Assembly: GCA_024235695.1 (NCBI GenBank)
Contig: JACKLX010000003.1
Location: 124,001 to 188,000 of the forward strand
Direction of reading: 5' to 3'
Source: Accumulibacter sp.
GTDB taxonomy: Bacteria > Pseudomonadota > Gammaproteobacteria > Burkholderiales > Rhodocyclaceae
DNA: 64,000 nucleotides
The translations under genes were made by a program, and so were the position numbers. Under the pieces are notes generated by a model. The model was not told the DNA's origin. It saw only the letters and a program-made list of their open reading frames with translations, and searched no databases. Shown piece by piece: positions 847 to 64,000 of the stretch (the stretch's first letter is position 1; each line of letters opens with the position of its first letter).

Positions 847-1051
847 TGTGGCACTTTCCATGCTTTGGTTGTCAGAAGGGAGCCATGTCGCCGCCTCCCC
901 GGCGCGTATCGGTTGTCCCTGCCATTGTATCGGCAAAGGCCGCGAGCGGCCAAACCGGCGGCAGCGAACGGCCGGTGTGAGGCGTTCGTCGCAACCGCCG
1001 GCGTCAATGTTGGCGAGGACGTCGGCGAGCAGCCCGGGTAAAATACGGCGC

Positions 1052-1729
1052 ATGAATCTGCTGGCCATCGAGACGTCCACCGAGTCGGGCAGCATCGCCG
1101 TCTGGCGCGACGGCGAGCTGACGCGGCGTTGCTGCCCACCTGGCGTTGCCCATTCCGAAACGCTGCTGCCGCTGATCCGGACGACCATGCGCGACGTCGG
1201 CCTCGCCCTTGCCGAGCTGCACGCCGTCGCCTTTGCCGCCGGACCGGGGTCCTTCACCGGTCTGCGCGTCGCCTGCGGTGTCGCCCAGGGCCTGGCTGTC
1301 GCCCACCAGCTGCCGGTCATCGCGGTCGGTACGCTCGACGCGATGGCGCTGGCCAGCGCCGGCGAGCGGGTGATCGTGGCGCTCGATGCACGCATGGGCG
1401 AGGTCTATTTCGGCTTCTTCGAGCGATCGTTGCCGCTGGCGCCGGTGGCCGTCTGTCGACCGTCGGAACTGCCGATCCCGGCGTCGTCTGGCTGGCTGGC
1501 CTGTGGTAACGGACTGGCGGCCTACCCGCTACTGCGCCAGCGGCTGGCGGACTGCGTGCGGTCGTGGCAGCCCGAGCTGATGCCCGATGCCGGCACCGTC
1601 GCCAGGCTTGCGGCGACCAGCCTGGCGCGCGGTGAAACCGTCGATGCGGCCGACGCGGCGCCGCTCTATGTCCGCAACAAGGTGGCGCTGACCGTTGTCG
1701 AGCGTCTGGCGACCGGCGGCAAGGCGTGA
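1052..1729 (+). CDS. tsaB: tRNA t6A37 threonylcarbamoyltransferase subunit TsaB
   Basis: A 225-residue protein of the ASKHA-fold TsaB family, the scaffold partner of TsaD and TsaE that places threonylcarbamoyl on A37 of ANN-decoding tRNAs. The start MNLLAIETSTESGSIAV and the motif AAGPGSFTGLRVA near residues 63-75 are diagnostic. The reading frame stays open upstream, but only the ATG at 1052 begins the conserved N-terminus, and length then fits the family. The stop codon overlaps the GTG start of rimI, so the two are probably translationally coupled. The tsaB-rimI pairing is common in proteobacteria. Confidence 0.95.
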   Translation: MNLLAIETSTESGSIAVWRDGELTRRCCPPGVAHSETLLPLIRTTMRDVGLALAELHAVAFAAGPGSFTGLRVACGVAQGLAVAHQLPVIAVGTLDAMALASAGERVIVALDARMGEVYFGFFERSLPLAPVAVCRPSELPIPASSGWLACGNGLAAYPLLRQRLADCVRSWQPELMPDAGTVARLAATSLARGETVDAADAAPLYVRNKVALTVVERLATGGKA

Positions 1730-2202
1730 GCGCCGTGCTGTCAGCGCAGGTCGAGATGATGCCGATGGGTCATGGCGACGTCGACGAGATGCTGGCGGTC
1801 GAACGCGCTGTCTATCCCTTCCCGTGGACGCGCGGCAATTTCCTCGACTCGATCGCCTCCGGGTACAGTAGCTGGGGCTGCCGGGTCGCCGGCGAACTGG
1901 TCGGCTACTACGTGCTGATGCTGGCGCTGGACGAAGCGCACCTGCTCAATCTGAGCGTCACGGAGAAGCGTCAGGGAATGGGTTTCGGCGCTGGCCTGTT
2001 GCGCCACGCAATGCGCTCGGCTCGTCGCGGGGGGGCGATGATGATGTTGCTCGAGGTGCGTCCGTCGAACGACAAGGCACGGGCGCTGTACCGGCATTTC
2101 GGTTTCGAACAGATCGGCGTGCGGCGCGCCTATTACGCGGCCGACGCCGGTCGTGAGGATGCGCTGGTGCTGCAGCACCCGCTTGCCGAGGTTTCGGCAT
2201 GA
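1726..2202 (+). CDS. rimI: Ribosomal-protein/alanine N-acetyltransferase RimI
   Basis: A 158-residue GNAT acetyltransferase that uses acetyl-CoA to acetylate the N-terminal amine of ribosomal protein S18 and some other proteins. The GNAT core shows the N-terminal VERAVYPFPW segment, the acetyl-CoA strand with LLNLSVTEKRQGMGFG, and the typical RimI C-terminal stretch LLEVRPSNDKARALYRHFGF. The start is a GTG at 1726 that overlaps the tsaB stop (GTGA). The 3' end overlaps the udg start (ATGA). This makes a tight tsaB-rimI-udg operon. Confidence 0.93.
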   Translation: MSAVLSAQVEMMPMGHGDVDEMLAVERAVYPFPWTRGNFLDSIASGYSSWGCRVAGELVGYYVLMLALDEAHLLNLSVTEKRQGMGFGAGLLRHAMRSARRGGAMMMLLEVRPSNDKARALYRHFGFEQIGVRRAYYAADAGREDALVLQHPLAEVSA

Positions 2203-2999
2203 GCGTTGGCAGTCGTCGGCGCGCCGCGCTGACGCGCGCGGAATTGCTGCGCGAGATGGGTCTGGCGCGGCCGTGGCGATTGCGCGAGAAGCGACCGGCG
2301 GCCGGCACTGTGCTCACGCCGAGCGCCGACGAAGTGGTCGAATGTCACCGGCCGGCAGGCCTTGATCCGCCGCCAGCCGCCGACCGCAGGGCAGAGATCG
2401 CCGCGCTGGACTGGCCGCAGTTGCGGCAAAGCGTCGCCGACTGTCGGGCCTGCGGCCTCTGCCGGGAGCGGCGGCAGGCGGTGCTTGGCGTCGGTGACGT
2501 CAACGCCGACTGGCTGTTCATTGGCGAGGGTCCGGGGGCCGAGGAGGACGCGCGTGGCGAGCCCTTCGTTGGCCCGGCCGGCAAGCTGCTCGATGCGATG
2601 CTCGCGGCGATTGATTTGCGACGCGGCGACGATGTCTACATCGCCAACGCCGTCAAGTGTCGCCCGCCCGGCAACCGCACGCCGGAGGCCGCCGAGATGG
2701 CCGCTTGCGCGCCCTATCTGAACCGCCAGATCGCGCTGATCCAGCCGCGGCTGATCGTTCTGCTGGGCCGCGCCGCGGCGAACTCGGTGCTCGGCGAGGT
2801 CGGTTCGCTGGCGAGTCTGCGCGGCCGCTCGCTGACGTATCGCGGAGCGCTGCCCGGCGGACCCGAAATCCCGGTGGTGGTCACCTACCATCCCGCCTAC
2901 TTGTTGCGTACCATGCTCGACAAGGCCAGGGCCTGGGAAGACCTGTGCCGAGCGCGGGCGCTGTGGCGTGCTGTGCGGGCGGCGCCGCCGCCTGGCTGA
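2199..2999 (+). CDS. Uracil-DNA glycosylase, family 4 (Fe-S type)
   Basis: A 266-residue protein that removes uracil from DNA at the first step of base excision repair. The catalytic domain starts near residue 70 with a cysteine pair (CRACGLC), consistent with the 4Fe-4S cluster of family 4 enzymes. It continues with [17 protein letters not shown] (active-site motif) and HPAYLLR (DNA-intercalation motif). The first 70 or so residues are a proline/arginine-rich extension without recognised domain, as often seen in betaproteobacterial homologues. The ATG at 2199 overlaps the rimI stop. Family 4 is sometimes annotated as phage SPO1 DNA-polymerase-related protein. Confidence 0.92.
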
Positions 3000-3115
3000 G
3001 TGCCTTGCCTGATCGCGACAGCTTGGCCTGGGTCGTCGGGCAGGTCGTGCTCTCGGGGCGCCGGGCGGCCAGCCCGTCTATCGCCGAAACAGCAGAGGAA
3101 GATGAGGACAAGATC

Positions 3116-3751
3116 GTGCGCATACGTTTGCTGACCATTATCGTGCTGCTTGCCGGCCTGCTCGCCGGCTGCGGCTACAACACTTTTCAGAGCGGTGACG
3201 AGGCGGTCAAGTCGGCATGGTCGGAGGTGCTCAACCAGTACCAGCGGCGCGCCGACCTGGTCCCCAACCTGGTCGCCACGGTCCAGGGCTACGCCAGTCA
3301 CGAAAAGGAGGTGTTGACCCAGGTGACGCAGGCGCGCGCGCAGGTTGGCAGCATTCAGCCAACGCCGGAACTGGTCAACGATCCCGCCGCCTTTGCCCGC
3401 TTTCAGCAGGCGCAGGCGGGTCTGTCGAGCGCGCTGTCGCGCTTGCTGGTAGTCGTCGAGAGGTACCCGCAACTGAAGGCAGACGCCGCTTTCCGCGACT
3501 TGCAGGCACAACTCGAGGGTACCGAGAACCGCATCGCCGTGGCGCGCAACCGCTACATCAAGGCGGTTGAGGCCTACAACGTCTCGGTGCGCAGTTTTCC
3601 GAACAATCTCACGGCGATGATCTTCGGTTACGGCGTCAAGCCCAATTTCAGCGTCGATGCCGAGCGCGAGCGGGCGATCACGGCGCCGCCGACGGTCGAC
3701 TTCTCGGCGCCTGCCGCGGCCGGCAAGGCTGCGCCGGCAGCCGCCAACTAG
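3116..3751 (+). CDS. LemA family lipoprotein-like membrane protein
   Basis: A 211-residue LemA protein starting at a GTG at 3116, chosen because it directly precedes the hydrophobic leader. The leader [19 protein letters not shown] ends in a lipobox-like LAGC, so an N-terminal lipid anchor is likely. The body shows the LemA helical-bundle signature: [19 protein letters not shown], then [10 protein letters not shown], the [20 protein letters not shown] stretch and [12 protein letters not shown]. LemA proteins have no settled biochemical role but are usually encoded with TPM-domain proteins, as here: the next start lies 2 bp after this stop. The C-terminus is Ala/Pro-rich. Confidence 0.93.
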
Positions 3752-3753
3752 CC

Positions 3754-4635
3754 GTGTCGAGGCTCTATGGCCGATCGCTGCCGTGGCTGCTGGGCGTATG
3801 GCTGCTGCTCGCTACCGCCTTGGCCGATGGCGCCGAGACACAGCCGATTCCGCCGCTGCGCGCTCGGGTTACCGACCTCACCGGCACGCTCGCCGCCGGG
3901 CAGCAGGCGAAACTGGACGCCAGGCTGGCCGCCTTCGAGCGCGCGAAGGGCGCGCAGATCGCGGTGCTGATCGTCGCCACGGTGCAACCCGAGACCATCG
4001 AGCAATACGCGCTGCGCGTCGTCGAGGCGTGGCAGCTGGGTCGGCAGGGCATCGACGACGGCGCCTTGTTGCTGGTCGCCAGGGACGACCGCAAGCTGCG
4101 CATCGAGGTCGGCTACGGCCTCGAAGGCGTGCTCAACGACGCGACCGCAAAGCGCATCGTCAGCGAAACGATCAGCCCCCGTTTTCGGCAGGGTGACTTC
4201 GCTGGCGGTATCGACGCCGGCGTCGATGCACTGCTCAAGGTGGTCGGTGGCGAACCGCTGCCGCCACCGGCCGCGGCGCCGAGTCAGCGCGCCGATCGTG
4301 GCGATAGTCCCTTCGAGACGCTGCTGATGGTCGGCTTCATGATCGTTTTCGTGATCGGCCGCATGCTGCGGGCGATCTTCGGAAGCCTGCTGGCGGCCAT
4401 CATCGTCGCTGTCGCCGCCGGCGTCTTGGCCGCGCTGCTGCTCTCGTCGCTGCTGGCGGCGGTGATCATCGGCGTGCTTGCGTTCTTCGCCTCGCTGTTG
4501 ATCGGCGCCCTGGGTTCCGGCGTCAGGACTGCCGGCGGTGGCCCCTGGCGCGGTGGTGGCGGTGGTGGCCGATCCGGCGGCTTTTCCGGGGGTGGCGGCC
4601 GCTTTGGCGGCGGCGGCGCTTCGGGAGGCTGGTGA
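3754..4635 (+). CDS. TPM-domain (YgcG-type) membrane protein
   Basis: A 293-residue protein with a GTG start 2 bp after lemA. Residues 1-27 form a signal peptide (cleavage likely near ALADGAE). Residues about 33-165 are a TPM domain, with VTDLTGTLAAGQQAKL and the G-Y-G-L-E-G-V-L-N-D segment. Two closely spaced hydrophobic segments follow around residues 185-245. The tail is very glycine-rich (repeats of GGGG, SGGFSGGGG) ending in ASGGW. This architecture is typical of YgcG/TPM_phosphatase proteins encoded beside LemA; TPM domains have been linked to phosphatase or photosystem-repair roles, but bacterial function is unclear. The stop overlaps the next gene. Confidence 0.9.
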   Translation: MSRLYGRSLPWLLGVWLLLATALADGAETQPIPPLRARVTDLTGTLAAGQQAKLDARLAAFERAKGAQIAVLIVATVQPETIEQYALRVVEAWQLGRQGIDDGALLLVARDDRKLRIEVGYGLEGVLNDATAKRIVSETISPRFRQGDFAGGIDAGVDALLKVVGGEPLPPPAAAPSQRADRGDSPFETLLMVGFMIVFVIGRMLRAIFGSLLAAIIVAVAAGVLAALLLSSLLAAVIIGVLAFFASLLIGALGSGVRTAGGGPWRGGGGGGRSGGFSGGGGRFGGGGASGGW

Positions 4636-52840: not shown

Positions 52841-52951
52841 TCAGGGGCTTCGCATGTCATCGAGAAATCCTGATGCCGGTTCGACGCTGGTCATAAGCAG
52901 ACGATCCCGCGCTCGCGCGCACGCGACGTGGAGCAGATGGCGCTCGGTGTC
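52841..52951 (-). pseudogene. Out-of-frame 3' end of the UvrD-like helicase gene
   Basis: Reading minus-strand from 52951 in the next frame gives 36 residues and a TGA at 52841. They begin DTERHLLHVACARARDRLL and continue to a natural-looking end (FLDDMRSP). This is UvrD motif VI (usual form VACTRAR) plus the expected short tail. It joins the upstream frame exactly where a Y codon is expected: the DNA reads GTC-TA-GAC where GTC-TAC/T-GAC would restore the frame. So one base is missing, and the loss itself creates the TAG stop of the main frame. Confidence 0.85.
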
Positions 52952-54942
52952 TAGACCTCCTGCAGGTCGGCGTCGTCACCGACCGTCTCGATGCGCTCCT
53001 GCAAGGGAATTACCTCGTCGTCGCATGCCATCACCACCACGGCGCGGAATTCCAGCCCCTTGGCGAGGTGCGTGGTGCTGATGGCGACTTGCCCGCTGAT
53101 CGTCTCGACCTGCTCGTCGAGGACCTTGAAGGCCAGCCCCGATTCCCTGACGGCCGCCCGGACGCGGTCGAGCTGTGCCTCGGATTGAACGAACACGCCG
53201 ATCTCGTGCGGCAGCAGGCCGGCCTCGGCACACCCCGTCAGCCATTTGGCGACTGCTCCGATTTCCTCGCTCTCGTCCTTGTGGTTGTGGATTATTGGCG
53301 GCGGGCCGTTGGACACCGAGATGGTGTCGCTGCGATCCTCGCTGTTGCCATCGACGTCGGTCACGGTCGGGCCAAGCAGTCGATCAGCCTGGCTGCGGAT
53401 TTGGTGCGAGGTACGGTAGTTGACGCGCAAGGTGCGCGAGCGTCCCCGGATGTCCACCCCGAGCGCTTTGCACGAAAACGGTTGCTGGAAGATGCGCTGG
53501 CCAAGGTCGCCGGCAAAAAACAGCGCATTGGGCCGGCCGCCACCCAGGGCGGCAAGGAATCGGAGATGAGCGACACCGAGATCCTGTGCTTCGTCCACCA
53601 CCGCGAAGTCCAAGACCACCTTTTTCTGCGCCGAAAATGCTGCGGCCAAAGCGGTGAACCGCTCTGCATGCGTGATCAGCTTGCGTTCGTGCAGTCTTGC
53701 GCGTAGCCGCTCGAAGATCGACCACAGCACGGCGCGCTGCGCTTCCGGAAGCCTGCTCTTCCGACCGAGGCGAACCACGTCGCGATATTCATCCCAGGTG
53801 GTCAGCTGCCACGCATCGACGACCTGTTCCCATTCGGTCAGGACAAAATGCACGCTGAACCTGTGGCCGTCGATGGCGCTCGCCGCGTCATTCAGTACTT
53901 CGCGGATGAACTCCCGGCTGGCCATCAATGGCGGGCCCACGTGGGCCGTGTACAGCCGCAGACCGATTGCCTCCAGCGAATGAACGTCTATTCGCTCGGC
54001 GAGGCGCGGCTTGTGGGCCAACAAGCGCTTCAGCTTCGCGTGCAGTGCACTCGCCAGGGTGTCCGAGAAAGTCGTCAGGAGGACGCGCGCATCGTTATTC
54101 GTACGCGCCAGATAGGCGGCCCGATGCAGGGCGACGATGGTCTTCCCCGTGCCGGCCGAGCCAGCAACCCGTGCCGGTCCCGCATGGTCACGCTCGACCC
54201 ATTGTTGTTGTTCGGGATGAAGAAAGACGGCCCACTTGTCCCACGGGAGTTCGAGCGCGCGCTGCAACTCGTCTACGTTCGACATCATCCTGAAGCGTCG
54301 TTGAGCGTCGGGGTGATCGAAGGGGCCGACTGTTTCGGCGGATGGCGTCGGTGCGCGAGGTTTGCCGCCTGTTGCCAGTTCAAGCAGTGCCTCTGCCGCC
54401 TCGGCTGGCAGATGGTCGGATAAGGCCAGAAGCGTGTCCTCGTTCGCCTGCTTGACGTCGGCCAACCATTCGGCCGGTACCCCGTAACCGAGGAGTTCGT
54501 CATCGGACCTGCCGGCAAACAGGGGTGGTAGCTCGGGCGCTGGCTTTGGCTCCAGCACGAGTTCCGCTCGCAGCGCCTTTTGCGTGTACGCCGGGACAAC
54601 GATTTCCTTTACCGTCTCGCGTATCTCGACCAACTGCGCGGCACCCGTCTTCGGGTGCGTTTCCAGCTTGCGCCGTTCAGCCCAGTCGTATGCCTTGTCG
54701 TGGTGATCGACGTAGCAGAGCAAGAGGCTCGCATTGCTTCTGAGCACGATCAGACGCAGGTCGCTGCCGGCCCTTACTGACCGGAAGTGATTGTCCGGTG
54801 CGCGGTCCAGTCGGTGGAAGCTCAAGCCCGGATTGGCAGGATTGAGCTGCAAGTCGAACGCTGTCGTCTTGATAGCCGTTTTCTCGCCGCCGGTCAGGCG
54901 CGCCAGGCTGTCGGTGAACGTATCTGCGATGCGGAATTCCAT
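52951..54942 (-). CDS. UvrD-like helicase with RelE/ParE-like N-terminus (C-terminally truncated)
   Basis: A 663-residue superfamily 1 helicase. Residues 1-95 resemble the RelE/ParE toxin fold (FTDSLARLTGGEKTAI, then DLRLIVLRSNASLLLCYVDH and HDKAYDWAERRKLE). The helicase core has Walker A GSAGTGKT (261-268), DEAQD (450-454), GDLGQRIF, motif IV VNYRTSHQIRSQA and motif V STTHLAKGLEFRAVVV. It then stops at DDADLQEV, before motif VI with the arginine finger, because of a one-base frameshift; the rest lies at 52841-52951. Without motif VI, ATP hydrolysis should fail. It starts 19 bp after the DUF234-type ATPase gene and belongs to the leftward defence-type locus. Confidence 0.85.
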   Translation of the reverse strand: MEFRIADTFTDSLARLTGGEKTAIKTTAFDLQLNPANPGLSFHRLDRAPDNHFRSVRAGSDLRLIVLRSNASLLLCYVDHHDKAYDWAERRKLETHPKTGAAQLVEIRETVKEIVVPAYTQKALRAELVLEPKPAPELPPLFAGRSDDELLGYGVPAEWLADVKQANEDTLLALSDHLPAEAAEALLELATGGKPRAPTPSAETVGPFDHPDAQRRFRMMSNVDELQRALELPWDKWAVFLHPEQQQWVERDHAGPARVAGSAGTGKTIVALHRAAYLARTNNDARVLLTTFSDTLASALHAKLKRLLAHKPRLAERIDVHSLEAIGLRLYTAHVGPPLMASREFIREVLNDAASAIDGHRFSVHFVLTEWEQVVDAWQLTTWDEYRDVVRLGRKSRLPEAQRAVLWSIFERLRARLHERKLITHAERFTALAAAFSAQKKVVLDFAVVDEAQDLGVAHLRFLAALGGGRPNALFFAGDLGQRIFQQPFSCKALGVDIRGRSRTLRVNYRTSHQIRSQADRLLGPTVTDVDGNSEDRSDTISVSNGPPPIIHNHKDESEEIGAVAKWLTGCAEAGLLPHEIGVFVQSEAQLDRVRAAVRESGLAFKVLDEQVETISGQVAISTTHLAKGLEFRAVVVMACDDEVIPLQERIETVGDDADLQEV

Positions 54943-54961: not shown

Positions 54962-56425
54962 CTACAGTCCGGCCGTCAGGTCGACGAGGCTCTGCGGCAA
55001 TACGTCGCGCTCCTGCAATGCCGCCCTGGCGTCCGCGCCAATGTCGGGGGCGATGGCCACGTACTCGCGCGTCCACCCTTTGAACTTCGGATGCACGGCA
55101 AGGAAGCGGTCGGCGCTCTTCTTCAGGGCATCTGCCGCGCCAATCAGACGGTCGGGGTTGCGCTTGCAGGTGCCGAAGCGAATTCGACGCTCGTCTTCGT
55201 TCACCGCCACGAGGTCGATTTCGACGTCGGAGCGATCCCAATAACCGCGAATACGCTCGCTGAGCGCGAAATCGCCAATGCCCAGGCGGCTGCGCTCCTC
55301 GTATAGCTGGCCCGCGAGGTCTTCCAGCGCGTAGCCCTCGACGTCGGCCAGACGCCCGTCGGCCTGGTCGATCAGGACGTCGATCGGGCGAAAAGCGACC
55401 GCCGAAACCGGCCGCTGCAAGGCCGACAGCCAGGCGCGCAGGAAATTGTCGCGGATGTAGTAGCGGCCGCTGCGTGCCCGCGCCGGCGAGAAGATCGGCA
55501 GGCGCCGCTCGATCATCCGGTAGCGTTCGCTGAGAACCTTCAGATAGCCGCCGACCTGGCGCACCTCGCCGGGACCGGAAAGCTCGACCATCGTCGCTTC
55601 GATGTCGGCGTTGGTGCAGCCCGGGTGTCTGGCCAGGTACTGCAACACCATGTCGTAGCGTCCGCGCAGTTCGCGCAGAAACCAGTTGTCGGCTTCGTTG
55701 CGCAGGGGCGAGGAACTGGAGAAGAACAGGCTGCGCAGCAAGGGCCGGCGCTCCGCGTTCAGCACCCCTTGCTCGTAGGCGTCGCGGTAAAACTTGGGTA
55801 CACCCTCGAACAGATTCCAGAGAAACAGCAGCCGTGAAGGATCGTCGTTGGCGTGGACGCGCAGGATCTCCAGCACCGAGGCGATGTCGAGATGCCCCAA
55901 CTCGATGGTGTCCGTGCTGCGGTTGAAAAGTGGTGCATCCCGATCCTCGAGTACGGCGGTCATTTCGGCGTGCAGCGATCCGAGCACGATCAAGCCGCCG
56001 ACGACCTGCGCCGCACGCGCAGCGAGGCGATCGACTTCCGCTTGCAGCAGCGAACAGAAGTCAGCCAGTTGCTTGCGGTGGAAATACTGGAACTCATCGA
56101 GCGCCACCACGTAACCGGCACTGGCCAGCCGCCCGATCAGTTGTGCCAGTTCACCGAGGCTGGTAACCCGCGCGTCGATACCAAACGTTTCCAGATAGCC
56201 GTTGCAGGCGGCTACGACACCTGCGGGGTCGGAATCCGGGATCTGAATGTAGAGCGTTCTGTCGATGGCGGCTGCACGCAGCGCCTCCTGGATCAGCGCT
56301 GTCTTGCCGATACGCCGTCGTCCGGAAATCTGCAGGAAGAACTATCGCCGCCGCTCGAGAATGCGCTGCATCTGTTGCAGCTCGGAGCGGCGGCCATAGA
56401 ACGACCAGGGAGCCATGTCAGTCAT
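54962..56425 (-). pseudogene. DUF234-type AAA ATPase interrupted by an amber codon
   Basis: From ATG 56425 the minus strand encodes MTDMAPWSFYGRRSEL and continues to RRR, then TAG at 56344-56342, then FFLQISGRRRIGKTAL in the same frame. The amber replaces a codon for W (TGG) expected before the P-loop. The frame then stays open to a stop at 54962, giving 488 codons in all. Visible parts: Walker A GRRRIGKT, Walker B-like VVALDEFQYF, winged-helix segment, and a C-terminal DUF234 region with SDVEIDLVAVNEDERRIRFGTCK. In the last motif the usual ECK reads TCK, so the putative nuclease Glu is lost. The longest downstream restart (GTG 56110) would lack the P-loop. Confidence 0.82.
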
Positions 56426-56544: not shown

Positions 56545-59400
56545 CTAGACCCTGAACACCTTCATCACCTCGTCCCCGAGGTGATTGATCACCTTCACGG
56601 CTATCCGCCCGGATTTCGGCTTGTCGAACGGGCGCGAGGTGTCGCTGTTCAAGGTCGCCCAGGCCTCCGGGTCGATCTCGGCCTTCAGCGTCGTCCTGAG
56701 CGCGCGGTAGGGGTCGTTGGCGCCGAGGAAGTAGGCGTGACGGACGAAGAAGCTCTCTTCGTTGTAGTCGGTATCGATGAACCAGCAGGCGATGCCGTCG
56801 GCGCCGTGGCTGATCACTTCGCCGGTCTGTGGCTTGAAGACGTCGACGCCGTTTACCTTCAGCCGCAGCCTGCCGTCTGCTTCGGGCAGCAGGGTGATGT
56901 CGGGTTCGCCGAAGATCACGAAGAGGTTGCCCTTGCCGGTGTTCTTGAGGTCCTCGGCCATGTGCAGGTCGGCGTTCATGCGCGCCTTGAGGACCGGGAT
57001 GCGGCCGAGCTTGCTGAAGTCGGTGGCGTGCGCCTCGTAGTTGAAGGCGCAGGCGATCAGCACGTCGAAGCCGCCATCGCCCGCCTCGCGCGCGGCGGCG
57101 ACGAGGTCGGCGCGCTGCACGGTGCCGAACTCGGGGCCGATGAAGATCGCGGCGCGCTTGTCGCTGCCGGTTTCGGCGTTGCCTTCGAGGTAGCGGCCTT
57201 CGGCGCAGACCAGATCGCCGGGCCAGGGGGTGAGGGCGGTGAAGCTGATGCGATCTTCCCTGTGCGCCTGCTGCACGCCGGCGGTCTTCAGGTTTTCCAG
57301 CACCATCTGCGGGAACGACTGTTTCGCGGCGTAGTCGGCGCGGTCCTGATTGAAGCCGTCGATCAGTTCGTCGTCCTCGTCGACGCCGAGCACGCGGTGC
57401 GGGCTGAGGCTCTCGACGGTGAACGGGCCGGCGACGCGGACGGTCTTTTTGTCCTCGTAGGGCTTGTCGTAGAGCGTTTCGAATTCGGCTTTGGCGGCAA
57501 TCGACGCGTCGATTTCCTGCTGCCGGCCGATGCGCGCCTGCCACCAGTCGGCGTGCAGCTTCTTCGCTGCTTCCGGCCACCTGCCGTCGGCATCGCGCGG
57601 AATCTCCCACTCGTGCCACGATTTCTGGAGCGCGGCGTTCAGCGCTTCGCGCAAGGGTTCCAGCTTCGCCTGCCACTGCTCCCAGATGACGTCGATCTCG
57701 GCGTTGTTGGCGATGGACTTGAGCGTGATGTGCGGCACGCGCTCATAGACAAAGCCGTGGCGGATGTCGCCATGCACCGGCTGTGAACTCGGCGCGGAGC
57801 GAGTGACTTCGGCTTCCTTGAGCTGGCCGGCGCGCGAGTCGGCAAGCAGGTAGAAGGGATAGCGCGCGCCCATGATGCGCGCACGGGCCAGCGCCAGCGC
57901 GACGCGCGAGGTGTCGATGGTGATCCAGCGGCGGCCCCATTGCTCGGCGACGGTGGCGGTGGTGCCGGAACCGCAGGTCGGGTCGAGGACGAGGTCGCCG
58001 GGGTCGGTGGCCATAAGGAGGCAGCGTTCGATGGCGCGTGTGCCCGTTTGCACGACGTAAATCTTCTCATCCCCATAGCCGCTTTGCCGTGTGTCATCCC
58101 AAATATCGTTGCGGGGCTTGAACGCGAAATCGTTGAAATAGCGAACGAATGTCAACGACTTGCCAATCGCGAACAAGCGGTTCGCTTTGTTCAGTTGGTT
58201 TAAGCCGCGGAGATTGGTGCTGAAGGTCCGCTTTCCTGGAGTAAACGTCTGGCCCTTGAAATCATATTCGCTCACATCATTTTCCTGTTGTGGCCTAGCG
58301 CTGGTGAGGGGGTTATACCGATAAGCTCGCGCGCCTTCTGGCAGAGGCACAACTTCGTCACCTTCTTCCTTGGTCATAGGACGCCGCTTGCCATCGGAGT
58401 TTTCAACGAATCTCACATTCATGTCTTCTGAGTGAGATCGTCCTTCGAAGGATGGCCTGAACTTCAGTGATGTGCGGTCTTTGGCAAACCACAGCAAGTA
58501 GTCGCAGGTGTTATCAAGCGCTCCGCTGGCCTTGCCTGTCGTTTTCCTGAATACGACCTGTGCGATGAAGTTTCCATCCCCAAACACCTCATCCATCACC
58601 GCCCGAACCCGGTGCACATTTTCATCCCCGATCTGCACGAAAATCGATCCCGACTCCGTCAGCAGATCGCGCGCCACGGTCAGCCGATCCCGCAGGTAGG
58701 TCAGGTAGCTGTGTATCCCGTCCCGCCAGGTGTCGCGGAAGGCTTTGACCTGCTCGGGCTCGCGGGTGATGTGGTCGGCCTTGCCGTCCTTGACGTCGCG
58801 GCTGGTCGTGCTCCACTGAAAGTTGCTGTTGAACTTGATCCCGTAGGGCGGATCGAGGTAGATGCACTGCACCTTGCCGCGCAGGCCTTCGCGCTCGGCC
58901 AGGCTGGCCATCACCTGCAGCGAGTCGCCGAGGATCATGCGGTTGGTCCAGTTCTGGTCGTGCTGGTAGAACTCGGTCCTGTCGGCGCCGGCCGGGATGC
59001 CGTTGAAGTCGGCGAAGAGGTCCGGCGTGAGCTGCCCGGCCTCGTGCGCACGTTCCCTGGTGCTGCGCAGCAGGTCGTCGATCAGCGCCTTGGGGTGCAC
59101 CTTCTCCTGGATGTAGAGCGGCGGCGCGTGCACGACGAGGTCGCTCCAGTCCTGCTCGTCCTTGCCGCGCCAGACGAGCTGCGGGTCGAGATCGCGATTC
59201 CGTGTGGCTTTTTCGGCGCTGTCGCCAGCGACGGTGCGTGGGTAGCTGACCTGCTTCGGCTGCTGCTCCTCCTTGTCCAGCACGGACTGGTATTCGGCGG
59301 TCGGGATGTTCCTGCGCTTCGCCTCGTCGTGGGTCAGCGACTCGATGGTCTTGCCGTTGCCGGCAGCGGTGGATCGGGCGGGTCTGGTGGATCTGGCCAT
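56545..59400 (-). CDS. Type III-like adenine-specific DNA methyltransferase (Mod)
   Basis: A 951-residue site-specific N6-adenine methyltransferase. DPPY (residues 183-186 in CIYLDPPYGIKFNSNF) precedes the SAM-binding DPTCGSGTTATVAEQWGRRW, the beta-class order of type III Mod proteins. The target-recognition region lies between them. A C-terminal extension of over 350 residues (LYDKPYEDKKTVRVAGPFTV, then NVFKPQTGEV-like parts) is longer than classical Mod. The ATG at 59400 is favoured: AAAGG lies 7 bases upstream; ATG 59406 is the alternative. It starts 22 bp after the Fic gene stop. It should protect host DNA from the restriction helicase encoded at the head of the locus. Confidence 0.92.
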   Translation of the reverse strand: MARSTRPARSTAAGNGKTIESLTHDEAKRRNIPTAEYQSVLDKEEQQPKQVSYPRTVAGDSAEKATRNRDLDPQLVWRGKDEQDWSDLVVHAPPLYIQEKVHPKALIDDLLRSTRERAHEAGQLTPDLFADFNGIPAGADRTEFYQHDQNWTNRMILGDSLQVMASLAEREGLRGKVQCIYLDPPYGIKFNSNFQWSTTSRDVKDGKADHITREPEQVKAFRDTWRDGIHSYLTYLRDRLTVARDLLTESGSIFVQIGDENVHRVRAVMDEVFGDGNFIAQVVFRKTTGKASGALDNTCDYLLWFAKDRTSLKFRPSFEGRSHSEDMNVRFVENSDGKRRPMTKEEGDEVVPLPEGARAYRYNPLTSARPQQENDVSEYDFKGQTFTPGKRTFSTNLRGLNQLNKANRLFAIGKSLTFVRYFNDFAFKPRNDIWDDTRQSGYGDEKIYVVQTGTRAIERCLLMATDPGDLVLDPTCGSGTTATVAEQWGRRWITIDTSRVALALARARIMGARYPFYLLADSRAGQLKEAEVTRSAPSSQPVHGDIRHGFVYERVPHITLKSIANNAEIDVIWEQWQAKLEPLREALNAALQKSWHEWEIPRDADGRWPEAAKKLHADWWQARIGRQQEIDASIAAKAEFETLYDKPYEDKKTVRVAGPFTVESLSPHRVLGVDEDDELIDGFNQDRADYAAKQSFPQMVLENLKTAGVQQAHREDRISFTALTPWPGDLVCAEGRYLEGNAETGSDKRAAIFIGPEFGTVQRADLVAAAREAGDGGFDVLIACAFNYEAHATDFSKLGRIPVLKARMNADLHMAEDLKNTGKGNLFVIFGEPDITLLPEADGRLRLKVNGVDVFKPQTGEVISHGADGIACWFIDTDYNEESFFVRHAYFLGANDPYRALRTTLKAEIDPEAWATLNSDTSRPFDKPKSGRIAVKVINHLGDEVMKVFRV

Positions 59401-59422
59401 GGTCATGCCTTTGCTGGTCGCA

Positions 59423-60634
59423 TCAGGGTGATTCCGGTTTGCCGGCAGGCTTGATGTTCGTCGGGACGACGAAGCCCGGCCATAGTGCGTTGTCGGTATC
59501 GAGGAAAGCCAGTTGCAGCTCCCGCAGGCGGTGCAGGTCACGCTGGCGCGTCTTGTCGTTGAGCTTCAGATAGAGGCTTTTGTACCAGGGTGCCTGGCGC
59601 ACTTCGGCGAGAGGCAACGGCCGTCCGCGATCGAGCAGCATGGAAAGGATGGTGTACTGGCGGGCGTTGATCCGTTTTTCGTCGAGGGCGCGGCGGATGT
59701 CGCTCTCGTAGAGCAACATGTGCACCAGTCGATTGACGCGATCATGCAGCGTGTTGATGGTCTGCCGCATGCCTTCGAGATGGAAGTCGACGAAGCCCTG
59801 ATTCGGGGCCTCGCGCTTTTTTTCGGCGGCCTTGCGGCAGCTGTTGAAGAGGGTGAAATAGGCGTCGATATTCTGCAGGTAGTAGCGCGTCAGGGCGAAG
59901 GGCGCGTAGCGGTAACCGGCGGCCTGCAGCAAGGTGGCTTCGATGACGCGGCCGACGCGGCCATTGCCGTCCCAAAAGGGGTGAATCTGCTCGTAGTAGA
60001 GGTGCACCAGCGGCGCGCGGATCAGCGCCGGGACCGCCGCTGCCTGGAGATCGTCATGCCAGGCGATCAGTGCGACGAGCAGACGTTCGACGTCCCTGCC
60101 GTATTGCGGCGGCCTGTAGCGGCCGCCATGGGCGGCGTCGCCGACAAGGGTGACGCGGGTCTTCGGGTTGTCGCGGATGAGGCCCGGGCGGTTGTCGTCG
60201 TGCGGGATGCCGGCGGTGACGAGCCGATGCAGATCGACGATGAATTGTGTCGTCAGTGACCAGCCGGGTGTCTTGGCGGCGGTCCTGGAAAAATCGTAGG
60301 CCGCCTTGATGTTGAGTGCGCGCTGTTGCTCGACCGCGTGCAACTGCTGCGGATCGAGCGCCAGCGCGCTGGCGGTTTCCTCCTCGCTCAGCGTACCGCC
60401 TTCGATGGTGTTGGTGCCGAACACGCTGCTGACGATCACCTCCTGCTCCAGCTGGTTCGCCACCTGGGCCAGCGGGGACGCGACGAAGCGCGCATGCGCG
60501 TCCTCGACACGGTGCAGTCCCAGCGCGACCGCCGCCGCCGTGAATCCGGGCTGGAAGACGAACGGCCCGAAGCGGTCGGTGTCGATCCGGCGGACGATAT
60601 CGGAACAGTCTCCGGGCAAAATTTTGTCGTCCAT
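59423..60634 (-). CDS. Fic family protein (class II, self-inhibited AMP-transferase)
   Basis: A 403-residue Fic protein. The catalytic motif HPFWDGNGRVGR (218-229) is complete, so AMP transfer to a target hydroxyl is expected. The inhibitory motif (S/T)xxxE(G/N) is present before the Fic core as TNTIEG (74-79), which marks class II Fic proteins held off by their own N-terminal helix. A C-terminal winged helix region (ARQYTILSMLLDRGRPLPL) ends the protein. It sits between the restriction and modification genes on the same strand, with only 22 bp to the methyltransferase, so it looks like an integral member of the locus. The target is unknown. Confidence 0.93.
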   Translation of the reverse strand: MDDKILPGDCSDIVRRIDTDRFGPFVFQPGFTAAAVALGLHRVEDAHARFVASPLAQVANQLEQEVIVSSVFGTNTIEGGTLSEEETASALALDPQQLHAVEQQRALNIKAAYDFSRTAAKTPGWSLTTQFIVDLHRLVTAGIPHDDNRPGLIRDNPKTRVTLVGDAAHGGRYRPPQYGRDVERLLVALIAWHDDLQAAAVPALIRAPLVHLYYEQIHPFWDGNGRVGRVIEATLLQAAGYRYAPFALTRYYLQNIDAYFTLFNSCRKAAEKKREAPNQGFVDFHLEGMRQTINTLHDRVNRLVHMLLYESDIRRALDEKRINARQYTILSMLLDRGRPLPLAEVRQAPWYKSLYLKLNDKTRQRDLHRLRELQLAFLDTDNALWPGFVVPTNIKPAGKPESP

Positions 60635-60735: not shown

Positions 60736-63700
60736 TTATTCGGCCAGTGAGTCGATCATCCGGGCGAATTCCGCCTCGACCCTGGCCTTGAAATCCGTCT
60801 CGATCTGGTACACCTCGCAGAACTCGGCGAAGGCCCAGCGGCCATGACTACCGAGATGGTTCACGCCGGGCACCCAGTAGGTGTCCATGGTCGCCTTCTT
60901 TTCGACCGCGTCCTCGCGCCGGTAGCCCTTGATCTCGACGATGAGGTGCAGCAGATCCTCGGGACCGTGGCCGTCGTCGACCAGGACGATGAAGTCGGGC
61001 AGGTACTTGCGCGTCTCGGAGCCGTAGCGGTAGGGCACTTCGAGCCCGAGGCCGTGGTTCTTGGCGTAGGCACGCACCCTGGGATGCGCTTCGGCGACGC
61101 GGCAGAATTCGCCTTCCCAGTCGCTGTCGAGCACCACCCAGTTGATCTGGCAGTGCCTGGAACTGGTCTGCCAGCGGTCGGTCTTCGAGGTGTTGAAACG
61201 GACGTGAGCGGTCGAGCCGCTGGGGTTGTAGGGGTCGAGCAGCGCCTTGATCGGGCGCTCGCCGAGGAACTGCCGGGTGATCGCCGCGGTGATCTTGTTG
61301 CAGGCCATGTCGGCCAGCTCCTGGTACATCAGCTGCGCCGGGTAGGTGCCGCCCTTGCAGACGAGATACTTGCGCTTGTCGTCACCGTCCAGCCATTGCC
61401 TGGTGATCCGCTTCAACTGGCCGAAGAGGTGGAGCCTGGGGTTTTCGCCGGGGTCGCGCCACCTGGTGTACAGCAGCCTTTTGGTCAGGTGAAAGACCAG
61501 GGTCGAAGGTCGCACGTCGCCGAGGTGCGCGACGGTGAGGTCCACGCCTTCGCCGATGATGCCTTCGTTGCGGTTTACCGTCGGTCCGGTCAGGTCGGGC
61601 GTCAGTTCCAGGACGGATTCCTCGCTGAAGGCGGCGCTCAAGCGTTCTTCCGGCAACTCGACCCGGTAGCCTGCGACGCGGGGAAAACGAATCTCCAGCG
61701 CGTCGCGCTCCGGGCGCACCGCCTTGACCTGCACCGTCTCGCGCGGCCGTTGCGGCGGAGCGATCACCGGCCTGGCGGTGAAGTCGAAGGGGATGCCGAA
61801 GACGTCGGCGTACTCGACGCTGAACAGGCCCTCGTCGTTCAGTTCGTAGGACTGGCGGCGCAGCGCGCGACCGATCACCTGCTCGCAGAGCAGTTGCGTG
61901 CCGAAGGCGCGAATGCCGAGGACGTGGGTGACGGTGTTGGCGTCCCAGCCCTCGGTGAGCATCGACACCGACACGACGCAGCGGATGGCGCCGCCCAGCT
62001 GGCCCGGCTTGCCGACGGTGTTCATCACCTCGCGCAGCAGCTCCTGGTCGGTGATGCTGTCGCCGGCACGAGCATCCCCCGAGCGCTCGACGATCTCGCG
62101 CCGGAAACGTTCGATTTCGTCGGCCGCCATGCCGCGGAAACTGGCATCGAGTGCGTCGCCCGCTTCCAGTTGCTCGCTGTCGATCAACAGGGTGTTGGGG
62201 CGCGGCAGGGCGTTGCCGGTGACGTCGTCGAAGTTGCGAAACAGCGCCAGGTGGCCGTTAACCGGCGTGATCGTTCCGTCATCGTTCTGGCGATGAAAAC
62301 CCGCGACGTAGTCATACACCAGCTTGGATACGGCGGTGTTCTGGCAGACGATGATGAAACACGGCGGCACGCGGATGCCGGCCTCCTGCCACAGCCGGTA
62401 GGTCTTTTGGTAGTGGCCGTAGAGCGCTTCGAGCGCGGTTTGCAGGCGAAGGGGAAGTTTTTCCGGGTCGAGCTCGCCGCCTTGCCCACGGCCCTTCTTC
62501 GGCATGTCTTTTCGGATGTGTTCCCACAGATTGCGGAAGATCGGCAGTTCGTCGCCGCTGATGTTTTGCGCGACCGGCACGCGCGGCAGCTTGACGATGC
62601 CGCATTCGATGGCGTCCATCAGCGAGAAATCGCTCATCGTCCACGGGAACAGGGTGCCCTCGACGTAGCCCGAACCGCGGAGGAAGAACGGCGTCGCCGA
62701 GAGGTCGATCACCCGGGCGACGCCGAGCTTGCGCTTGACCGCTTCGAGGCCGGAAATCCACAGGCGCGCGGCCTCGTTCTCCTTCCTGGCCAGGGCTTTC
62801 GCTTCTCGCAGGTCGGCGCCGGTCAGTGGCTTGCCTTCGCCGTCCACGAAGTCGGCGTCGTCCGCTGGCTTCTCGCGGTAGCAGTGGTGCGCCTCGTCGT
62901 TGATCACCAGGATGTTCTTCATGCCCATCAGGTCCGGCATCACCCGCTGCAGCATCTGGCCTTCGTTCTCCTCGGTCCGCAGTTCGTCGCCGGTACGGCC
63001 CTGCAGCAGCTGACGTCCGCCCTTGCTTATCTCGAGGCGGTCGCGCAGCTTGAAGGCGTGGAAGTTGGTGATGACGATCTTGGCGCGGTTGAGCTCGTCG
63101 AGCATGTCGCCCGGCACCAGTTCGCGGTCCTTGTAATAACTGTCGGGGTCGTTTGGCTGCAGCACCCGCAGGCGGTCCTTGATCGTCAGACCGGGTGCAC
63201 AGACCAGGAAACCGCGCGTGAAATTCCTGCTCGCCGGGCGGCGCAGCGCGTTGATCGTCTGCCAGGCGATCAGCATCGCCATCACCGTCGTCTTGCCCGC
63301 ACCGGTAGCAAGTTTCAGAGCCAGGCGCATCAGCTCGGGGTTGGCGTCCTGGTTCGCTGCCGTCAGGTGTTCGAGGATGCCCTTGCCGTACCTGCTTTGC
63401 GGCGCCACTTCGGCGAGCCAGATCGCCGTTTCCACCGCTTCCACCTGGCAGAAGAAGGGACGGAAGTCGTTGAAGTCGTGCTGGCGCCAATGCTGCAGCA
63501 GGCGAACGGTCTCCGGCGTGACCTGCCACTGGCCTGGATTGGGCAGGGCGCGCCAGGCGTCCACATGCGCACGCACCTGGTTGATGATCGACGTCGGGTC
63601 GTACTGCTGTTTCTGGGTCGACAGTCCCTGGCCATTGTCGAAGACGAAAGCCTGCTGCCTGTCCCTGGCGGCACCCGTGCGCCTCCGGGGTTTGGGAATC

Positions 63701-63837
63701 GGCGTGATGAACTGCACGCGCCGCCGCGCTTCGAGAATCTGCTGCGTCGGCTGCCCCGTCTCGTCAAGCTCCCAGTGCCGCGAAGGGCACGCGTACGGCG
63801 AGTTCAGGATCGGATGGTCGAAGAACGGATTGGACAT
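60736..63837 (-). CDS. Type III-like restriction helicase/endonuclease (Res)
   Basis: A 1033-residue superfamily 2 helicase-nuclease. Walker A LATGAGKTTV starts near 176, the DEAH box is at 314-317 (NDEAHHCY), motif III is DLSATPFFLRGSG, and the C-half helicase motif is EQVIGRALRRQSYEL. The C-terminal PD-(D/E)xK nuclease reads YLPDFIVLVDDG ... LIVEIKGYR (residues about 950-980), intact. It is the kind often annotated BPTD_3080-family restriction endonuclease. ATG 63837 (MSNPFFDHP) is chosen over a TTG two codons upstream. It is the first gene of the leftward locus; a promoter should lie in the last 150 bp of the window. Confidence 0.92.
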   Translation of the reverse strand: MSNPFFDHPILNSPYACPSRHWELDETGQPTQQILEARRRVQFITPIPKPRRRTGAARDRQQAFVFDNGQGLSTQKQQYDPTSIINQVRAHVDAWRALPNPGQWQVTPETVRLLQHWRQHDFNDFRPFFCQVEAVETAIWLAEVAPQSRYGKGILEHLTAANQDANPELMRLALKLATGAGKTTVMAMLIAWQTINALRRPASRNFTRGFLVCAPGLTIKDRLRVLQPNDPDSYYKDRELVPGDMLDELNRAKIVITNFHAFKLRDRLEISKGGRQLLQGRTGDELRTEENEGQMLQRVMPDLMGMKNILVINDEAHHCYREKPADDADFVDGEGKPLTGADLREAKALARKENEAARLWISGLEAVKRKLGVARVIDLSATPFFLRGSGYVEGTLFPWTMSDFSLMDAIECGIVKLPRVPVAQNISGDELPIFRNLWEHIRKDMPKKGRGQGGELDPEKLPLRLQTALEALYGHYQKTYRLWQEAGIRVPPCFIIVCQNTAVSKLVYDYVAGFHRQNDDGTITPVNGHLALFRNFDDVTGNALPRPNTLLIDSEQLEAGDALDASFRGMAADEIERFRREIVERSGDARAGDSITDQELLREVMNTVGKPGQLGGAIRCVVSVSMLTEGWDANTVTHVLGIRAFGTQLLCEQVIGRALRRQSYELNDEGLFSVEYADVFGIPFDFTARPVIAPPQRPRETVQVKAVRPERDALEIRFPRVAGYRVELPEERLSAAFSEESVLELTPDLTGPTVNRNEGIIGEGVDLTVAHLGDVRPSTLVFHLTKRLLYTRWRDPGENPRLHLFGQLKRITRQWLDGDDKRKYLVCKGGTYPAQLMYQELADMACNKITAAITRQFLGERPIKALLDPYNPSGSTAHVRFNTSKTDRWQTSSRHCQINWVVLDSDWEGEFCRVAEAHPRVRAYAKNHGLGLEVPYRYGSETRKYLPDFIVLVDDGHGPEDLLHLIVEIKGYRREDAVEKKATMDTYWVPGVNHLGSHGRWAFAEFCEVYQIETDFKARVEAEFARMIDSLAE

Positions 63838-64000
63838 GGTCAACGCCCCCGGACTTGACCGATGACAGGCTGGTCGCCGCCGCGGTCAGGGCGGGTCGAG
63901 TGCGAACGGCACGCGCAGTGGCATTTGTTGGCGGCGGCCATTGTTCTCCCCGTGGTGGGCGCCTGTCTTTTCGAATGCGCTCCAATGTACTGCAGCTGTT

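Follow-up and report, generated by a model that had tools for sequence, protein, structure and literature searches.

A probable recent loss-of-function frameshift in the HigB/RelE-like UvrD helicase gene of a partly decaying Accumulibacter operon

The helicase gene at the end of a five-gene, minus-strand operon in Accumulibacter sp. is one base short inside a conserved tyrosine codon, and its main reading frame stops just before motif VI. We consider it very probable that this is a genuine and recent loss-of-function mutation, and that the helicase is now a pseudogene in a partly decaying operon. The gene lies in the window, by which we mean the whole 64,000-nucleotide stretch analysed here (G000:C3:124001-188000), which comes from a draft genome of 3.83 Mb in 32 contigs with a completeness of 83.66%. 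The order of the genes on the minus strand is RES, Fic-like, MOD, PDC-S27 ATPase and HigB/RelE-like plus UvrD helicase, and the features used below are the following.

60736..63843, minus strand: RES, type III-like restriction helicase, 1035 codons, open, named from its sequence and the gene order
59423..60634, minus strand: protein of 403 codons, open, which we take to be Fic-like from its protein sequence; it overlaps the start of the MOD ORF
56545..59541, minus strand: MOD, type III-like DNA methyltransferase, 998-codon ORF, open (PADLOC MTase_III, 1463.8 bits)
54962..56425, minus strand: PDC-S27 ATPase (DUF234), from ATG 56425, between MOD and the helicase, with TAG at codon 28
54942-52841, minus strand: HigB/RelE-like plus UvrD helicase, whole gene from the ORF frames, including the displaced tail
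54610..54942, minus strand: N-terminal HigB/RelE-like region, placed by the matches of homologues to PF05015
52951..54942, minus strand: helicase main frame, 663 codons
52951..52956, minus strand: junction, GTC then TAG, where the conserved Tyr codon is short by one base
52841..52951, minus strand: displaced C-terminal piece in the -1 frame, 36 codons plus TGA, with motif VI (Thr to Ala) and then the tail

In the mechanism that we propose, the loss of one base from the conserved Tyr codon just before motif VI would have placed a stop after 663 residues, and the product would lack the end of RecA-like domain 2, namely the rest of the motif VI arginine helix and the strand and helix that follow it. 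Removal of the arginine finger would silence the helicase motor, and the body and the displaced tail would have drifted after the frame was lost. The cargo ATPase is interrupted as well and the frames of MOD and RES are open, so the operon would be decaying in part.

The frame break and the domain that it displaces

The main frame ends at a TAG (52953-52951) directly after the residues DLQEV. From the GAC at 52951 the -1 frame runs without a stop to a TGA at 52843-52841, reading DTERHLLHVACARARDRLLMTSVEPASGFLDDMRSP; the earlier note on this DNA had the coordinates, the frames and the motif right. The junction was compared with a homologue set consisting of the best 80 of 238 loci by score, which were taken from genome contigs and had to contain exact short peptide matches, so that whole copies are favoured. 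Of these 80 loci 78 were aligned, L072 being omitted because its contig ends first and L058 because its start had been set in a short duplicate. At the junction each of the 78 aligned homologues, out of the best 80 of 238, has a Tyr, after which the frame stays open across motif VI; therefore, the window gene is one base short inside its Tyr codon, as had been proposed. Homologues that end naturally at DLQEV, the contrary case put forward in the earlier note, number none among the 78. For motif VI the usual reading in the aligned homologues is LLYVACTRARD, from which L046 and L050 depart by single changes, and L023 has a different tail after RARD. The full copy of L058 reads VYDTERHLLYVACTRARD, with the Tyr and YVACTRARD present, and the same two features are found in all 12 loci on viral contigs. 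Two loci hold partial duplicates of the gene: at L058:1063-1170 there is a second copy of the first 36 helicase codons, ~880 bp upstream of the full copy, and in L079 residues 1-76 are encoded a second time at 2378-2605.

The longest run of one base at the break, GGAGGTCTAGACACC, is two, which bears out the remark that no long homopolymer lies there. A Shine-Dalgarno-like AGGAGGT is present at 52955-52961, one base ahead of the TAG; it corresponds to the codons of the conserved QEV, and the likeness is probably accidental.

Searches against Pfam indicated that the main frame matches UvrD-helicase (PF00580, 9.3e-15, 55.5 bits with a cut-off of 23) and UvrD_C (5.5e-10); it also contains the Walker A sequence GSAGTGKT, and its best relative is 82% identical. 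The displaced piece gave two matches, to UvrD_C_2 (E 0.049) and UvrD_C (E 0.071), both weak and below the cut-off. It carries the stretch that we take to be motif VI, which with its arginine finger sits outside the main frame, in the -1 frame after the TAG, and has Ala in place of Thr. The gene resembles the UvrD/PcrA/Rep helicases of superfamily 1A in its UvrD-helicase and UvrD_C domains, both above cut-off, in that these proteins are its closest relatives of solved structure both by profile and by fold, and in the VACTRARD type of motif VI of its homologues. In contrast to them it has a fused N-terminal HigB/RelE-like region, and the window copy differs further in being truncated before motif VI and in its drift. 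Foldseek likewise placed UvrD/PcrA/Rep first, at a TM of about 0.3-0.4. A structure model of the whole homologue L002 is of low confidence (mean pLDDT 69.4, pTM 0.41) and was used only to place the part lost, which on this model takes in the last part of helix 656-674 together with strand 677-686 and helix 691-697. The arginine finger used for ATP hydrolysis by UvrD and PcrA comes from motif VI, and by analogy the truncated helicase, lacking that residue, should not hydrolyse ATP productively.

The RelE-like name that the earlier note gave to the protein is fair for the N-terminus of the family, for which each of the 20 homologues scanned gave a PF05015 (HigB/RelE-like) match at E <= 1 (best 3.5e-6), but the window copy itself shows no match. 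The N-terminal region alone had no meaningful match by sequence in the PDB, and no RelE structure appeared among the 50 Foldseek matches listed for a poor query model (pTM 0.41).

Changes at near-invariant positions and codon rates

A position was taken as near-invariant when at most one other sequence deviates there. The window helicase is changed at 12 such positions, the most of all 79 sequences (median 1, next highest 10), and these divide into 9 of 206 positions in the body and 3 of 17 in the tail; elsewhere, tail changes were found in six other sequences, one in each. Seven changes, checked singly, lie at positions identical in all 78 others (Q21K, H67L, W491C, F544S, M624T, Y672H, and T676A), and at the position of E692G, in the tail, 77 others have E and one has a gap. 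Motif VI of the window reads VACARAR, where Thr occupies the altered position in 78 of 78 relatives. Motif VI and the tail had been described as intact but displaced; displaced they are, but with Y672H, T676A and E692G they are not intact. The changed tail and the nine body changes, together with the TAG in the neighbouring ATPase gene, were absent from that description.

From the length of its terminal branch, 2.8 changes would be expected in the window copy vs. the 12 observed, a difference with a rough Poisson P of ~3e-5. In the intact L015 and L074, which have short branches, the ratio of near-invariant changes to branch length is higher than in the window, and L009, with a branch like the window's, carries one. 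When the measure was repeated by tblastn without the tail, the window ranked 4 of 89, and the three loci above it, L115 (G014), L113 (G022), and L117 (G024), are other copies of the genus, all of them broken. By the tblastn measure MOD is changed at 2 of 377 near-invariant positions (rank 37 of 56) and RES at 11 of 425 (rank 8 of 18), and both look ordinary on this measure; for FIC and S27 there were too few homologues (1 and 4, respectively) for such counts. The closest piece to the window gene is a remnant in G017, with 92% DNA identity over 258 bases. This remnant keeps W54 and H67, which are changed in the window, and has Q21K in common with it; therefore, part of the window's change postdates the split.

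In a two-ratio codon model, omega was 0.103 on the window branch vs. 0.084 elsewhere, which is not significant (p 0.23); foregrounds were fitted on UVRD only, for L003, the window, and L004. Pairwise dN/dS for the helicase was 0.116 between the window and L002 and 0.111 for the intact pair L002 and G035, and MOD values, at 0.255 to 0.309 (vs. G015, G019, and G004), exceed that of the helicase. Over the first 86 helicase codons, where changes are few, dN/dS was 0.232 for the window and the G017 remnant, 0.140 for G019 and G004, and 0.067 for L002 and G035. Signs of relaxed constraint are thus present at the near-invariant positions, but relaxation is neither significant in the branch omega nor visible in pairwise dN/dS. 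Because these two measures show no strong decay, the helicase gene appears to have been constrained through most of the time since its lineage separated and, supposing that it is dead, to have been freed only recently. The suggestion in the earlier note that the gene died very recently is accordingly supported as regards the death, but the word very has to be softened, since there has been time enough for about a dozen near-invariant changes, though with omega not significantly up.

Sequence quality and the neighbouring ATPase gene

An indel in the assembly or consensus, already raised in the earlier note, would mean that living cells carry the gene unbroken and that the base is missing from the sequence record only. 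One-base deletions are a common type of error, the genome is a draft, and whole-gene omega is not significantly raised, all of which speaks for this explanation, but it leaves unaccounted for the 12 near-invariant substitutions, including seven at sites where the other 78 sequences are all alike, and the TAG in the neighbouring gene, which is a substitution; nor is there a homopolymer at the site. As a control, the window was compared with stretches of the relatives G001 and G011 using ORFs of at least 150 aa with identity >60% and leaving out ORFs covered by half or less, so that the control covers those genes which the window, from 12.4 to 52.8 kb, has in common with G001 or G011. Each of the 27 distinct conserved intervals so obtained, 33,186 bp in all, matches G001 or G011 in one frame and shows no frame break, which argues against an assembly error. 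Coverage is below 90% in 4 of the 27. Inner stops occur in three, two of them at the very start of the alignment, before the likely true start, and the third in a frame whose codon-position base composition suggests an antisense ORF; some of the 27 control intervals may indeed be antisense ORFs. We therefore hold an indel error to be improbable, and return to the view that the base was lost in the cell.

The neighbouring ATPase gene bears on the same question. In the S27 frame from the ATG at 56425, an in-frame TAG stands at codon 28 (56344-56342), where G015 and G019 read Trp. The remaining ORF (56110-54962) matches PADLOC PDC-S27, a candidate single-gene defence ATPase, at 1.7e-182. PDC systems were found by guilt-by-embedding and for most of them validation is pending, as described in PMC12988326. 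Over most of its length S27 is well conserved relative to G015 and G019. Compared with G015, S27 shows 32 synonymous changes and 1 nonsynonymous codon change in the first 240 compared codons, and G015 has a frame change near residue 240 in its own S27 copy. The dN/dS of S27 was 0.508 over the last 74 codons vs. the G017 remnant and 0.063 over the whole ORF vs. G019. The S27 evidence on decay is mixed, and the stop, if real, is probably young, to judge from the codon comparisons. Two lesions that fall in adjacent genes, with no others seen, are more in keeping with real decay than with errors scattered over the sequence.

A different explanation accepts the break and supposes that the truncated 663-residue protein keeps a job, for example through its HigB/RelE-like region or in DNA binding, and that only the helicase activity has been given up. 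Most of the body still has a low dN/dS, and the share of changed positions is higher in the tail than in the body (3 of 17 vs. 9 of 206), although the numbers are small. However, positions identical in all 78 others are changed both in the N-terminal region (Q21K and H67L) and in the helicase part (W491C and M624T), and the N-terminal region of the window copy lacks the Pfam match found in 20 of 20 scanned homologues, so we regard a retained role as very unlikely. On the preferred reading of a real loss of function, the gene is an ordinary, recently dead helicase gene, a further case of decay in a probable defence gene, and should be annotated as a pseudogene.

Copies in related genomes and the operon family

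A search of 150 related genomes, not ranked toward whole copies, gave 14 with a match at 1e-30, including the window's own genome and nine others of the genus; this limit misses short remnants such as that of G015, with 48 residues. Three genomes of the genus (G015, G016, and G020) match only at 34-36% over near full length, which is a more distant kind. As for the close copies in the genus, the helicase is whole in G004; it has a frame change near residue 383 and ends near 426 in G019, has two frame changes in G022, is cut near 344 and carries a TAG in G014, is reduced to residues 1-91 in G017, and is split between two contigs in G024, where the frame changes near 124-141, and the G015 remnant makes the seventh close copy. 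With the window included, one of the eight close copies is whole and the others are broken elsewhere or are remnants. The break in G019 could be an error because it falls in a run of seven G. By locus, the broken or remnant copies among the other close ones of the genus are six of seven (L110, L111, L113, L114, L115, and L117/L096). Outside the genus, G035, G063, and G074 match the full query in one open frame, and G050 has a frame change at 522.

Across the other broken copies the frame changes lie near residues 84, 383, 522, and 557, and since these places differ, no recoding site is conserved. The notion of a switch by slippage or programmed shifting, also offered in the earlier note, in which the ribosome or polymerase would shift by one and both full-length and truncated forms would be made, is hardly credible: although the tail frame is open with an end like that of the homologues, and AGGAGGT precedes the TAG by one base, this sequence simply encodes the conserved QEV, inspection by eye revealed no slippery heptamer or repeat at the site, the 78 aligned homologues all pass it with neither stop nor shift, other broken copies shift elsewhere, the tail is changed at 3 of its 17 near-invariant positions, and the shift needed would be -1 (or +2), whereas the known site of the release-factor-2 type shifts +1.

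With regard to the partners of the broken helicase, MOD and RES are both open in the window and both in one frame in G015, and in G019 MOD is in one frame and RES in two. In G004, RES (L112 region 936-3836) has ~320 bases absent near its start in a DNA-level comparison with the window, and this operon may be damaged too although its helicase is whole. The Fic-like gene of the window has 85.6% DNA identity to the G004 copy. A broader and rather doubtful idea is that Accumulibacter repeatedly loses the HigB-UvrD effector, at different places, while Mod and partly Res are kept, which would reflect selection against a costly effector and leave a system that still methylates but is disarmed. If true, repeated effector loss beside a kept methyltransferase could show which part of the operon is costly.

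The operon resembles type III restriction-modification (Mod/Res), in that MOD matches PADLOC MTase_III and a RES-like helicase gene lies upstream; the true start of MOD may be inside the ORF, because matches begin near codon 61. The Fic-like gene lies between RES and MOD. The operon differs from type III systems in the extra HigB/UvrD gene and, at 58 of 76 measured loci, in the 390-4802 bp inserted between MOD and that gene; the other 18 loci have <=74 bp there. No named system combining Mod, UvrD and RelE/HigB was recognised in the literature searched, which is weak evidence of absence. The longest ORFs of the inserts (>120 aa) form 35 clusters (blastp, 1e-5), part of which may not be genes. 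Defence genes embedded inside other defence operons are known from published work (PMC12988326, PMC12255303). A role in defence is probable for the Res-(Fic)-Mod-[cargo]-HigB/UvrD operon, and a family of operons with a variable cargo slot may merit a study of its own. The operon may also be mobile. Among 11 plasmid records, 10 have partial matches to the query in its helicase part, at 60-80% identity, and one matches only the ATPase part, and relatives of the helicase were found at 12 loci on viral contigs.
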